Below, piece by piece: positions 5,254 to 37,222 of a DNA stretch of 64,000 nucleotides. Each line of letters starts with the position of its first letter. Position 1 is the first letter of the stretch. The DNA comes from Microcaldota archaeon. GTDB taxonomy: Archaea; Micrarchaeota; Micrarchaeia; Micrarchaeales; Micrarchaeaceae. Under the pieces are notes generated by a model. That model searched no databases. It was not told the origin of the DNA and saw only the letters and a list, made by a program, of their open reading frames with translations. The stretch spans positions 1 to 64,000 of the forward strand of contig JAJYYB010000017.1 in NCBI GenBank assembly GCA_021801355.1. Direction: 5' to 3'. Both the position numbers and the translations under genes were made by a program.

Positions 5254-5952
5254 TCATATGCCATGGAACCAGAAACCCTTGTCGCTCTTTGCGCCCTTCT
5301 TCTTTCCGAAAATCTTTCCAAGGAGCGATGTCTTCTGCAGCTCTGGCGGAGGTGTCCAGCCCTCGACTATCTTGCTTGCAGCCTCTGGATGGTCTATGAG
5401 GTACTGCTGCTGGTACGCGCGGAATTTCTGCAGCTTCTCGACCTCGTTCTTCGCCTTGTTCGCCTCCCATTCAGGCTTCATCGCCTTCCACTCATCTTCG
5501 CTATAAGCGTATGGCGGATGCTCCCTTATTGTTGATGGCTGGTATGCATAAGAGTAAAAGTCATGGTAGTAATCGTAGTCTATGTCCTCGATGCCGTTCC
5601 TGTCGATGTGAACGCCCTGGCTGGCAAGTATTTCCACAAGCTCATCGAGGCTCATCTTCTCCTTGTTGTTGTCCGAGCTCTTCGGGTTGTAGAGCACAAT
5701 TATCCTGCCGCGCGTGAAGTCAACCCTCGCTTTAAGTATCGGATCAAGTAGCATCAACCTGTACTGCAGCCTCGCTGCGTGCGGTATATCTATCAGCTCC
5801 TTCCTGCTAACATTAGAAAACGTAGCCTTCTTTATTATCCTGTACGGGACCCTGAACTTCTTTCCGTCCTCCTCAACATACTGGTTGAATTCGGCATTCT
5901 CCTTCCGCACCTCGTCTTGGCTTACTGTAGATGTGAAATTACCATGATCCAT
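5254..5952 (-). CDS. Conserved-looking hypothetical protein cotranscribed with tes
   Basis: This 232-aa soluble protein starts 36 nt after the tes stop, with GGTG seven nt before its ATG, so it very likely shares the tes transcript. A central segment (about residues 70-115) has the rhythm of a small ferredoxin-like HMA domain ('ARVDFTRGRIIVLYNP' followed by a helix and 'LASQGV') but has no Cys-x-x-Cys metal site. A Tyr/Asp-rich stretch follows, then a charged helix, and a Lys-rich C-terminus. I do not recognise a named family. The operon suggests a helper role for the radical SAM enzyme, for example lipid presentation or cofactor assembly; this is inference. Confidence 0.75.
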   Translation of the reverse strand: MDHGNFTSTVSQDEVRKENAEFNQYVEEDGKKFRVPYRIIKKATFSNVSRKELIDIPHAARLQYRLMLLDPILKARVDFTRGRIIVLYNPKSSDNNKEKMSLDELVEILASQGVHIDRNGIEDIDYDYYHDFYSYAYQPSTIREHPPYAYSEDEWKAMKPEWEANKAKNEVEKLQKFRAYQQQYLIDHPEAASKIVEGWTPPPELQKTSLLGKIFGKKKGAKSDKGFWFHGI

Positions 5953-5987: not shown

Positions 5988-7916
5988 TCATTGGCCTCCG
6001 CAGCCACATCCGCACGAGTCACCGGAAGCCTCGCTCTCCTTGTTTCCGCATCCGCATGACCCAGCTCCCTTGCCGCATCCGCATGAATCGCCCTCGATTG
6101 ACTCAGATTCAGCTACCGCTGCCTTCTTCACCTGGGCAGCGGCTGCTGCGGGCGCAAAGACTTCGTTGGTGAAGTTCTTGACGCCCTTGCCTCCGTTCAC
6201 AGGCATTCCAAAGTAATCAACCAGCGTTCCATAAGTCTTCTTGTAAAGGTCTGAGGCTTCGAGCTGCTTCACATCCCTTATGTACTTGTCCTTTCCATAG
6301 TCCCATGAAGAGTGCGTGCTCTGCCACTCGTTTGCAGGTATGCTGTACTGCTTCTGCACCTTATCCCTGTAGACTTCTGGGAAGACGTTGAATGTGCAGA
6401 ACGGCAGTACTTCGCCGTCAGGCATTGCGTAGTGTATGTCACACTTCTCAACCCTATGTATGTCGTAAGTGTATTCGTCCTGGAAGTGCATCATCCCCAG
6501 GAACAAGCTCTTCATCTGTAACTTGCCCATCGAGGCGAAGTCGCGCTTCAACAGAACTGACATCATCATCTTACTGAAGTTTACGCTCTTTGGCTGATGT
6601 TCAGCATCCACGAACTTCTTGAACTGTGCAAGTGTCTTGACAGCTATGGCCTTCCTCTGCAGCTTTCCCTTGCCTTCCATCTCGTTGACAGCCCTCTGCA
6701 GGTGCTCGACAAGTCCGTTTACGTCCACGAACCTTGTTATCGGTATTACCTTGTTGTCCGAGTCTAGGAATATGTAGGTTCCTGCGCCGCATGCGAAGTG
6801 TATTGACAGGTCGTACTTGTACTCCCCGCTGAGAGCCTCTATGAACCTGTTTATGCCTCCGACATAAGGCACCGAGAACCAGTCCTCCTTAGCTACAACG
6901 CCATTTGTCTGTTCCTCTATAAGTTTTATCGCGCCAGGTATGGTTATGCGCTGCTTCTCCCTTAGGCGCGTCGGCATTCTTCCGACCAGCGAGACTGGCT
7001 GGAAGTTCACCGCCCTTATGACATCAGTGTTATTCAGCGCGAAGTTTATCATGGCCCCGAGCTCGTGGTCGTTTATCGTCCTTATAACCGTCGGCACAAG
7101 CACCGCACTCATTCCTGCCTTCCTTATCGCGTCGAGCGTAAGCGGTACCTCCCAGTGGTTCTTCGGGTTTGCGCGCTTGCTGACCCCGTCGAAGCTCATG
7201 TAAAGCGTGCTTGTTCCTGCGTGCCTCACCTTGTAAGCAAGTTCCGGGTTCAGTCCTATGTTTATGCCTGTGGTGTTAAGCTGTATCTGGTCGAAGCCAG
7301 CCTCCTTCGCAGCCTGTATTATCTCAACTATGCGAGGGTGCATCGTTGGCTCCCCGCCAGTTATCTGCAGAGCATTGGCCGGAATCGGCTTCTGGCTCCT
7401 CAGGTTATTGAATATATGCTTCAATTCGTCGAGGCTCGGCTCGTATATCGGCTCTCCCTCCTTCGCGTAGAAGAAGCAGTACCAGCAGCTGAGGTGGCAC
7501 CTGTTCGTCACCACTACGTTAGCCAGCCCTGTGTGGGATTTGTGCCTTTCGCACATTCCGCAGTCGAATGGGCAGTTAGCCCCCTTGGTCTCGGTTATGT
7601 AGTTAGGGTTGTCGAATCCTCTTCCAAAATAATTGTAACGCCTCATTTTCATGTACATGTCATAGTCCTCCCAGTATTTTTCTATGGTCCACTGGTGCTC
7701 CGGGCAGTACTTCCTTATCATTACATTATCTCCGTCCTTATAGATTATCCCGTCGACTATAAGCTTGCATTCTGGGCATACGGTCTTAGTTGTCTCTATC
7801 ACCGGCATCTTTTGGATCTCGTCCATCATCCTGTGGTAAGGTGCCAAAACCTTGTTCGATTGCTCCTCTATCATAATCTGCACAGAGCCTGACTTATGAC
7901 TATCCTCGTTTGACAT
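5988..7916 (-). CDS. tes: Radical SAM tetraether lipid synthase (Tes/GDGT-MAS)-like enzyme with Cys-rich tail
   Basis: Tes couples the phytanyl chains of two archaeol lipids to give membrane-spanning tetraethers. The 642-aa product has the family layout: an N-terminal metal site with Cys47, Cys50, Cys71 and His74; a second Cys group at 115, 119 and 122 (NCPFDCGMCERH); the radical SAM triad CX3CX2C at 140/144/147 (CHLSCWYC); GGEP at 187-190; and further Cys in the C-terminal half that could hold another cluster. The last ~35 residues are an unusual Gly/Cys tail with three SCGCG-type blocks (7 Cys), separated from the core by an Ala/Glu linker. SD AGGTGT precedes the ATG. A lipid role is supported by homology to the MJ0619-type family; activity is not shown here. 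Confidence 0.87.
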   Translation of the reverse strand: MSNEDSHKSGSVQIMIEEQSNKVLAPYHRMMDEIQKMPVIETTKTVCPECKLIVDGIIYKDGDNVMIRKYCPEHQWTIEKYWEDYDMYMKMRRYNYFGRGFDNPNYITETKGANCPFDCGMCERHKSHTGLANVVVTNRCHLSCWYCFFYAKEGEPIYEPSLDELKHIFNNLRSQKPIPANALQITGGEPTMHPRIVEIIQAAKEAGFDQIQLNTTGINIGLNPELAYKVRHAGTSTLYMSFDGVSKRANPKNHWEVPLTLDAIRKAGMSAVLVPTVIRTINDHELGAMINFALNNTDVIRAVNFQPVSLVGRMPTRLREKQRITIPGAIKLIEEQTNGVVAKEDWFSVPYVGGINRFIEALSGEYKYDLSIHFACGAGTYIFLDSDNKVIPITRFVDVNGLVEHLQRAVNEMEGKGKLQRKAIAVKTLAQFKKFVDAEHQPKSVNFSKMMMSVLLKRDFASMGKLQMKSLFLGMMHFQDEYTYDIHRVEKCDIHYAMPDGEVLPFCTFNVFPEVYRDKVQKQYSIPANEWQSTHSSWDYGKDKYIRDVKQLEASDLYKKTYGTLVDYFGMPVNGGKGVKNFTNEVFAPAAAAAQVKKAAVAESESIEGDSCGCGKGAGSCGCGNKESEASGDSCGCGCGGQ

Positions 7917-8581: not shown

Positions 8582-8692
8582 CTACTTGCAGACGCAACCG
8601 CATTCGCATCCGCACTCGTTCTTTGATTTTAGGCTCATGCAGCAATCGCAGTAGCACGCCTTCGGGTTCTTTGATTTTTTGTTCTTGGCCAT
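8582..8692 (-). CDS. 36-aa Cys-rich microprotein, metallothionein-like
   Basis: A short open frame runs from ATG (8692) to TAG (8582). It has a Lys-rich head (MAKNKKSKNPKA), then CYCDCC, a Lys/Ser spacer, and CGCECGCVCK at the end. It has nine Cys in 36 residues, arranged as Cys-x-Cys and Cys-Cys pairs, the pattern of metal-thiolate peptides. It ends 3 nt from the speD stop (convergent) and its start is 58 nt from the divergent gene at 8751. AT-rich TATA candidates lie in between. No homology is claimed. Its CGC motifs resemble the tail of Tes nearby. A chance ORF is possible but unlikely given the non-random Cys spacing. Confidence 0.65.
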   Translation of the reverse strand: MAKNKKSKNPKACYCDCCMSLKSKNECGCECGCVCK

Positions 8693-8750
8693 GTTCATCA
8701 ATATTTATTACCTATCTGGCATAACATATATACTAATTTGTGTGATTTCA

Positions 8751-36980: not shown

Positions 36981-37120
36981 TTTGTTAAGCCTTGAGGCGT
37001 GGCTCTACGCCACTCTGCCCCCCCGTGCATGTCAATAATTGATGGCCAGTCAGCTCAACCCGAATGCCATATATCACATTTAAATATCTTGGATGCGTAA
37101 TAAAGTATAGGTGTAGCACT

Positions 37121-37222
37121 ATGTGTGACTCATGTGGATGCAACGAAGCATCCGAGAAGACAGAAGTGAAAATGGAGGCCAAGGAGACAAAGAAGAGGTC
37201 AAAGCCAAAGCCCCAGAATTGA
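37121..37222 (+). CDS. 33-aa microprotein with N-terminal Cys motif
   Basis: A short frame runs from ATG 37121 to TGA 37222. The N-terminus MCDSCGCNE holds three Cys (positions 2, 5 and 7); the rest is Lys/Glu-rich and ends in Lys/Pro repeats. A TATA box (TTTAAATA at about 37079-37086) lies ~40 nt upstream, and a T-rich terminator begins at the stop, so it looks like an independent gene. The DSCGC sequence also occurs in the Tes tail. It may bind a metal or cluster, but no family is known to me. Confidence 0.6.
   Translation: MCDSCGCNEASEKTEVKMEAKETKKRSKPKPQN

Follow-up and report, generated by a model that had tools for sequence, protein, structure and literature searches.

Tetraether lipid synthase (Tes) is a radical SAM enzyme that makes the membrane-spanning lipids underlying archaeal membranes and palaeotemperature proxies. 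Its described representative is MJ0619, also called GDGT-MAS or Tes (PDB 7TOL and 7TOM, NCBIfam NF045702), which has no Cys-rich tail. According to PMC9433317, which also gives the metal-ligand motifs of MJ0619, Tes links one sp3 carbon to another, and the intermediate has a carbon of the substrate attached to a sulfur from one [Fe4S4] cluster. Lipoyl synthase uses up its auxiliary cluster at each turnover and depends on a carrier such as NfuA or NFU1 to restore it (PMC9585516). Keyword searches of papers on Tes or the related Gms returned no passage on a Cys-rich tail.

Here we describe a micrarchaeal Tes that has in common with MJ0619 its core, its fold and all of its metal ligands, including a labile Met, and that adds an extension at residues 537–588, a module of repeated CGC motifs at the C terminus and a conserved neighbouring gene, here called gene X.

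The synthase and its C-terminal additions

The window, that is, the whole 64-kb stretch of DNA analysed, carries the following Tes features.

5988–7916, minus strand: tetraether lipid synthase (Tes, radical SAM) with a Cys-rich C-terminal module, 642 amino acids; ORF with matches to NF045702, PF04055, PF23545, 7tol and 7tom
6309–7793, minus strand: Tes catalytic core, residues 42–536, from the 7tol alignment
6153–6308, minus strand: Micrarchaeales-specific extension, residues 537–588, containing YFGMPVNGGKGVKNF and kept with or without the tail
5991–6086, minus strand: Cys-rich module, residues 611–642, three CGC blocks with 7 Cys, predicted to be disordered; from the ORF, alignments and pLDDT

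Tes is encoded by one minus-strand ORF with an ATG start, opposite a plus strand that is interrupted by stops. The ORF scores 660.5 bits against NF045702 (cut-off 450), covering positions 2–485 of the 486 in the model, and its sole Pfam matches at E 0.001 are Radical_SAM (PF04055) and Zn_ribbon_HMPTM (PF23545). Residues 42–536 align with PDB 7tol (E 3e-124), and Foldseek relates the protein to 7tom (E 3.5e-54). These matches bear out the Tes-like identity given in the initial annotation, which had also noted a Cys-Gly-Cys tail.

All of the 15 MJ0619 metal ligands are present and are invariant across 44 archaeal Tes (that of the window and 43 from other archaea). The published motifs can be read as a rubredoxin site of the CX2CX20CX2H type (C47/C50/C71/H74), a Cys3His N cluster (C115/C119/C122/H125), the CX3CX2C radical SAM cluster (C140/C144/C147) and a C-terminal auxiliary cluster (C376/C492/C507 with M476), in which M476 aligns with the labile Met439 of MJ0619. 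Judged by these ligands and matches, the ORF is a bona fide tetraether synthase. The initial annotation was right to call the radical SAM core complete, but it placed the end of the core too far along, near residue 608: homology to MJ0619 stops at 536, the extension runs to about 588, and confidence in the AlphaFold2 model collapses after about 570. That model, built with 44 sequences, has a mean pLDDT of 82.8, is confident to about residue 570 and falls below 50 at residues 574–593 and 602–642.

The last 32 residues, 611–642 (SCGCGKGAGSCGCGNKESEASGDSCGCGCGGQ), hold the three expected blocks, SCGCG, SCGCG and SCGCGCG, with seven Cys (C612, C614, C621, C623, C635, C637 and C639) in 28 residues. 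Words that encode CGCG occur four times in the window against 0.58 expected, and all four lie inside the tail. A genome-wide search for further tails of this type, suggested by the initial annotation, yielded only isolated CGCG words, mostly in short or shadow frames. Four genomes of the same genus yielded a Tes, and each retains the reading frame, the Cys positions and the blocks, as do many other genera. A PDB search with the tail matched no protein, and Pfam gave no match of Tes to a metallothionein model and no NifU-like domain; the Cys of the tail are arranged as CxC, not CxxC.

Across 48 such modules, Cys number 4–10 (mean 7.1) over a mean length of 29 residues, the middle residue of CxC is Gly in 133 of 164 cases, and gaps between blocks span 2–21 residues. 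Hydrophobic or Pro residues average 0.4 per module, linkers are Gly/Ser/acidic and in some cases His-rich, and 12 of the 48 have at least three His within the adjoining 30 residues. Metallothioneins are CxC-rich small metal buffers, and the tail is likewise short, predicted to be disordered, rich in CxC pairs at about one Cys in every four residues, and poor in hydrophobic residues. It differs in being fused to an enzyme, and its metal binding is putative. Codons within the modules vary (Cys is TGC 305 times and TGT 35 times, and all four Gly codons are used) and linkers differ, whereas the Cys and the CGC pattern are retained, which indicates selection on the protein.

Distribution of the module

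Tails were read from the DNA of draft genomes, with states at contig ends excluded. Tes was detected in 58 of 60 relatives, a count that includes a few fragments or only-distant radical SAM matches. Among 120 genomes of the order, the module is C-terminal in 74, N-terminal in 10 and absent in 36. The N-terminal form is found in one genus of the window's own family (g4) and one of the sister family (g38), which are separate on the tree; a single g4 genome (G167) has the C-terminal form, and one Tes (G040) has Cys clusters at both ends. The relocation in two genera of two families, together with the case with both ends occupied, suggests that what is kept is a function of the module itself and not of its position. 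When 295 genomes from across the phylum were searched with a profile of the tail, 41 matches reached E ≤0.01, and 40 of them are in Tes (39 long frames and one fragment at a contig end, in G294); the other is a free 82-residue ORF (G144). Among larger proteins of these genomes, the profile matches Tes only.

We recovered 80 Tes loci, 79 of them readable, from other archaea (Aenigmarchaeota, Archaeoglobi, Hadarchaea, Nitrososphaeria, Bathyarchaeia, Thermoplasmata, Thermoproteota and others). No multi-block CGC module was seen in any of the 79, and the C-terminal extension carries one or two CxC in nine. The expectation that described Tes proteins lack such a tail thus holds for 7TOL and for multi-block modules, but minimal single-CGC C termini do occur in some Nitrososphaeria, Bathyarchaeia and Pelearchaeum. 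In Ca. Pelearchaeum maunauluense (ending EEGGCGCGH) and archaeon HR02 (ending GSGCGCSH), a CGC likewise sits at the C terminus of Tes, as one block against three or more and with no gene X match beside the locus. Most Nitrososphaeria Tes keep one Cys in the C-terminal extension. The module is also absent from all nine Tes of other families of the same class. Two side observations come from these loci. In Nitrososphaeria (L253–L298), a conserved Cys in the extension (MGCA or AAGCAKS) lies where a few relatives have GCGC. Tes ORFs of Hydrothermarchaeota, Pyrohabitans and Thermoplasmata records (L252, L256, L258, L293, L299 and L300) have about 570–605 extra residues ahead of the core start and possibly contain inteins.

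Read against the order, the phylum and the other archaeal Tes, this distribution identifies the tail as a selected, lineage-specific addition. On the same counts, the module arose as an innovation at the level of the order, and it may have grown out of an older Cys at the C terminus. The alignments place the tail in frame and show it in close relatives; Tes proteins in general do not carry it. It belongs to the order, but it is not universal there, with about 30% of genomes lacking it and two genera carrying it at the N terminus. As Tes without the module occurs in that 30% and in all other archaea sampled, the tail appears dispensable for catalysis in general. A tail that is Gly/Ser-rich, disordered, variable in length and missing from many genera could also be a repeat expansion tolerated at a disordered end, drifting almost neutrally as low-complexity sequence. 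We consider this very improbable given that the tail is kept in about 70% of the order, that its Cys survive changes of codon and linker, that the module stands at the opposite end in two genera, and that among larger proteins it is nearly limited to one enzyme.

CGC motifs can be redox-active, and a single C-terminal CGC or Cys is kept in some other archaeal Tes; both would suit a thiol redox relay in which CGC pairs pass electrons or reduce disulfides near the clusters. Such a relay seems quite improbable here, with pair number and spacing left free (4–10 Cys, gaps of 2–21), unlike in known relays, and with no thioredoxin-type partner seen adjoining Tes.

Gene X and free-standing CGC proteins

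Directly downstream of Tes lies a gene that is conserved with it.

5254–5952, minus strand: gene X, 232 amino acids, no Cys, predicted HMA-like fold; adjoins Tes across the order
5779–5790, minus strand: D55-x-x-H58 of gene X, aligned to the HMA CxxC metal site
5257–5277, minus strand: C-terminal KGFWFHG motif of gene X, which co-varies with the Tes C-terminal tail

Gene X starts 35 bases downstream of Tes on the same strand, and it stands beside Tes in 134 of 140 stretches from the order, nearly always downstream and in the same orientation. None of nine Tes stretches from families elsewhere in the class contains it; weak matches lie near Tes in two further DPANN-like records (L239 and L245). 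A profile of gene X finds the CopA HMA domains from B. subtilis (1p6t, E 1.5e-5), which represent the CopA-type copper transporters and chaperones; there is no Pfam HMA match, and a single-sequence model is poor. Gene X differs from HMA domains in having no Cys in the window's genus, a long helical region, a C-terminal FWFHG and, in place of the MxCxxC metal site, which is absent, an invariant D-x-x-H whose D55 and H58 align with both Cys of the CxxC site (GMTCAAC in 1p6t).

In genomes of the order the KGFWFHG motif is essentially a single-copy feature, located beside Tes, with a second match in two genomes and a match in one genome without a full Tes. We rejected the idea that FWFHG is a general C-terminal tag because of this essentially single occurrence. 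Of the 74 genomes whose tail is C-terminal, 72 have the motif, against 6 of the 36 that lack a module (Fisher p 1e-18, not corrected for kinship), with two g43 genomes scored positive from a separate motif search and G238 excluded. On the tree, only four well-supported independent pairs bear on the association, with the motif changing in the same direction in 1.8 of them on average and in the opposite direction in none; here, and in the comparison of tail and standalone proteins, independent events are few and the tests are descriptive only. Adjacency across the order and the company that FWFHG keeps with the tail suggest that Tes and gene X probably work together, and the tail and FWFHG may be parts of one function.

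The same co-variation with an aromatic C-terminal motif would fit a docking or anchoring role, with Tes held to the membrane, to X or to a second Tes by modified Cys, by disulfides between chains or by Zn shared between partners; that the module works from either end and that Tes substrates are membrane lipids point the same way. The module nevertheless has no hydrophobic or basic membrane-binding residues, and its acidic and His-rich surroundings would be unusual in an acylated anchor, which leaves us regarding anchoring as rather unlikely.

The first profile searches suggested that the module is strictly exclusive to Tes. We dropped this idea when looser CGC pattern searches, covering 164 genomes of the order, revealed small CGC-repeat proteins: a zinc-knuckle and CGC group, a helical ELRAFIKGYMMGQ family, DUF5320-like proteins and Lys/Cys microproteins. 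As such repeats also occur in small proteins of tailed genomes, the CGC motif is not exclusive to Tes. Proteins with a zinc knuckle followed by CGCGGxCGCGG (L195–L202 and L138) are limited to exactly nine genomes, spread over five genera (g5, g11, g16, g19 and g21), and a wide gap separates them from the next matches, most of these being Tes tails or unrelated zinc ribbons. Tes is tail-less in all five genera, including the positive g5 genome (G264). By genus, the standalone protein is present in 5 of 20 tail-less and in 0 of 24 tailed genera, an exclusion that holds only at genus level; before g5 was added, the test stood at 4 of 20 (p 0.036) and was not significant with kinship considered. 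The pattern is suggestive of the module acting in trans.

Several further observations concern small proteins. The zinc-knuckle and CGC gene lies near an MTA-phosphorylase-like gene in two genera (g11 and g21). Candidate tail-less zinc-knuckle forms in tailed genera were discarded, as the weak profile matches resembled zinc ribbons of the ribosomal S27ae type. The free CGC ORF of G144 (L101, about position 1784, plus strand) lies near pheT and resembles the N-terminal Tes module of its genus; no full Tes was found in this draft genome. The small helical ELRAFIKGYMMGQ proteins, with C termini rich in CGC or CNC (L190, L191, L186, L193, L194, L179 and L182), belong to no Pfam family and occur in both tailed and tail-less genomes. 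Two small ORFs lie in the window itself.

8582–8698, minus strand: Cys-rich Lys/Cys microprotein, putative ORF, 38 amino acids with 9 Cys; resembles CxC microproteins of other genera
37064–37222, plus strand: small ORF with MCDSCGCNEAS, not Cys-rich overall

These are the first and probably the second of two microproteins in which motifs similar to the tail had been reported; of the two, the first is Cys-rich and the second is not. The ORF at 8582–8698 resembles MAKKMKKTKTGKHEDECCMNCCSCCGC of G049 and MAKKSTKRSSKKMEEECCMNCC of G153, and it has no clear homologue within its genus, with similar microproteins elsewhere in the order.

The free Cys-rich small proteins of the order, one of which (DUF5320-like) scores weakly as a metallothionein, together with the metallothionein-like composition of the module, would be in keeping with a tail that soaks up excess Cu, Zn or Cd and so shields Tes or the cell, delivering nothing to Tes. 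We think this unlikely, since among larger proteins the tail profile matches Tes alone, and a sponge would need neither fusion to Tes, nor relocation with Tes, nor tracking of the gene X C terminus.

A proposed role in metallocofactor supply

Among the roles that have been put forward for the tail, metal donation or cluster loading is favoured on the basis of composition, His-rich neighbours and co-variation with a putative HMA-fold partner. We hypothesize that an ancestor within the micrarchaeal order added a flexible metallothionein-like module to Tes, whose thiolates would bind metal, as Fe or a labile Fe–S cluster and possibly as Zn. So tethered, the module would act as a local, high-concentration supply to build, repair or protect the four Tes metallocofactors. 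Its likeliest client would be the auxiliary cluster, as this cluster forms a carbon–sulfur bond with the substrate during the reaction. The gene X protein, with its D-x-x-H and FWFHG, would probably contribute to this process too, perhaps by docking or by passing on metal, and in lineages without the module small CGC proteins may do the same job in trans.

A store accounts for the position at either end, the disorder, the variable spacing and the likeness in composition to metallothioneins better than a fixed catalytic element would. We place the reading of the tail as a tethered metallothionein-like store of metal or clusters for Tes slightly short of an even chance, and the version in which it repairs clusters would be about half as probable as that. 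Taken whole, a dedicated tethered system for Tes maturation and repair, in which the tail holds iron or a labile cluster and, with gene X, reloads the cluster that forms the C–C bond, and in which other genera keep the CGC protein as a separate molecule, is unlikely. The comparison with NfuA/NFU1 and lipoyl synthase is one of analogy, in that a thiol carrier would serve a radical SAM enzyme with a chemically active auxiliary cluster; the tail differs in having no NifU domain or CxxC pair and in being tethered to Tes. To our knowledge, Tes does not lose cluster sulfur to its product at each turnover, unlike lipoyl synthase, so the need for repair in Tes is drawn from analogy only.

Earlier work suspected that Tes in DPANN genomes comes from hosts (PMC8941075); according to the same work, Methanococcus maripaludis lacks tes. 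In Ca. Micrarchaeum harzensis, a relative in culture, lipid pathways are incomplete and the lipids, dominated by GDGT, are the same as those of the host (PMC8975820). Presence of Tes across the order, with additions specific to the order, argues that the enzyme is native to this lineage. The findings touch on the question of whether the lipid chemistry of DPANN archaea is their own, and a conserved thiol module on Tes, accompanied by a co-varying HMA-like partner, offers a testable handle on how a radical SAM enzyme may be supplied with its cofactors.
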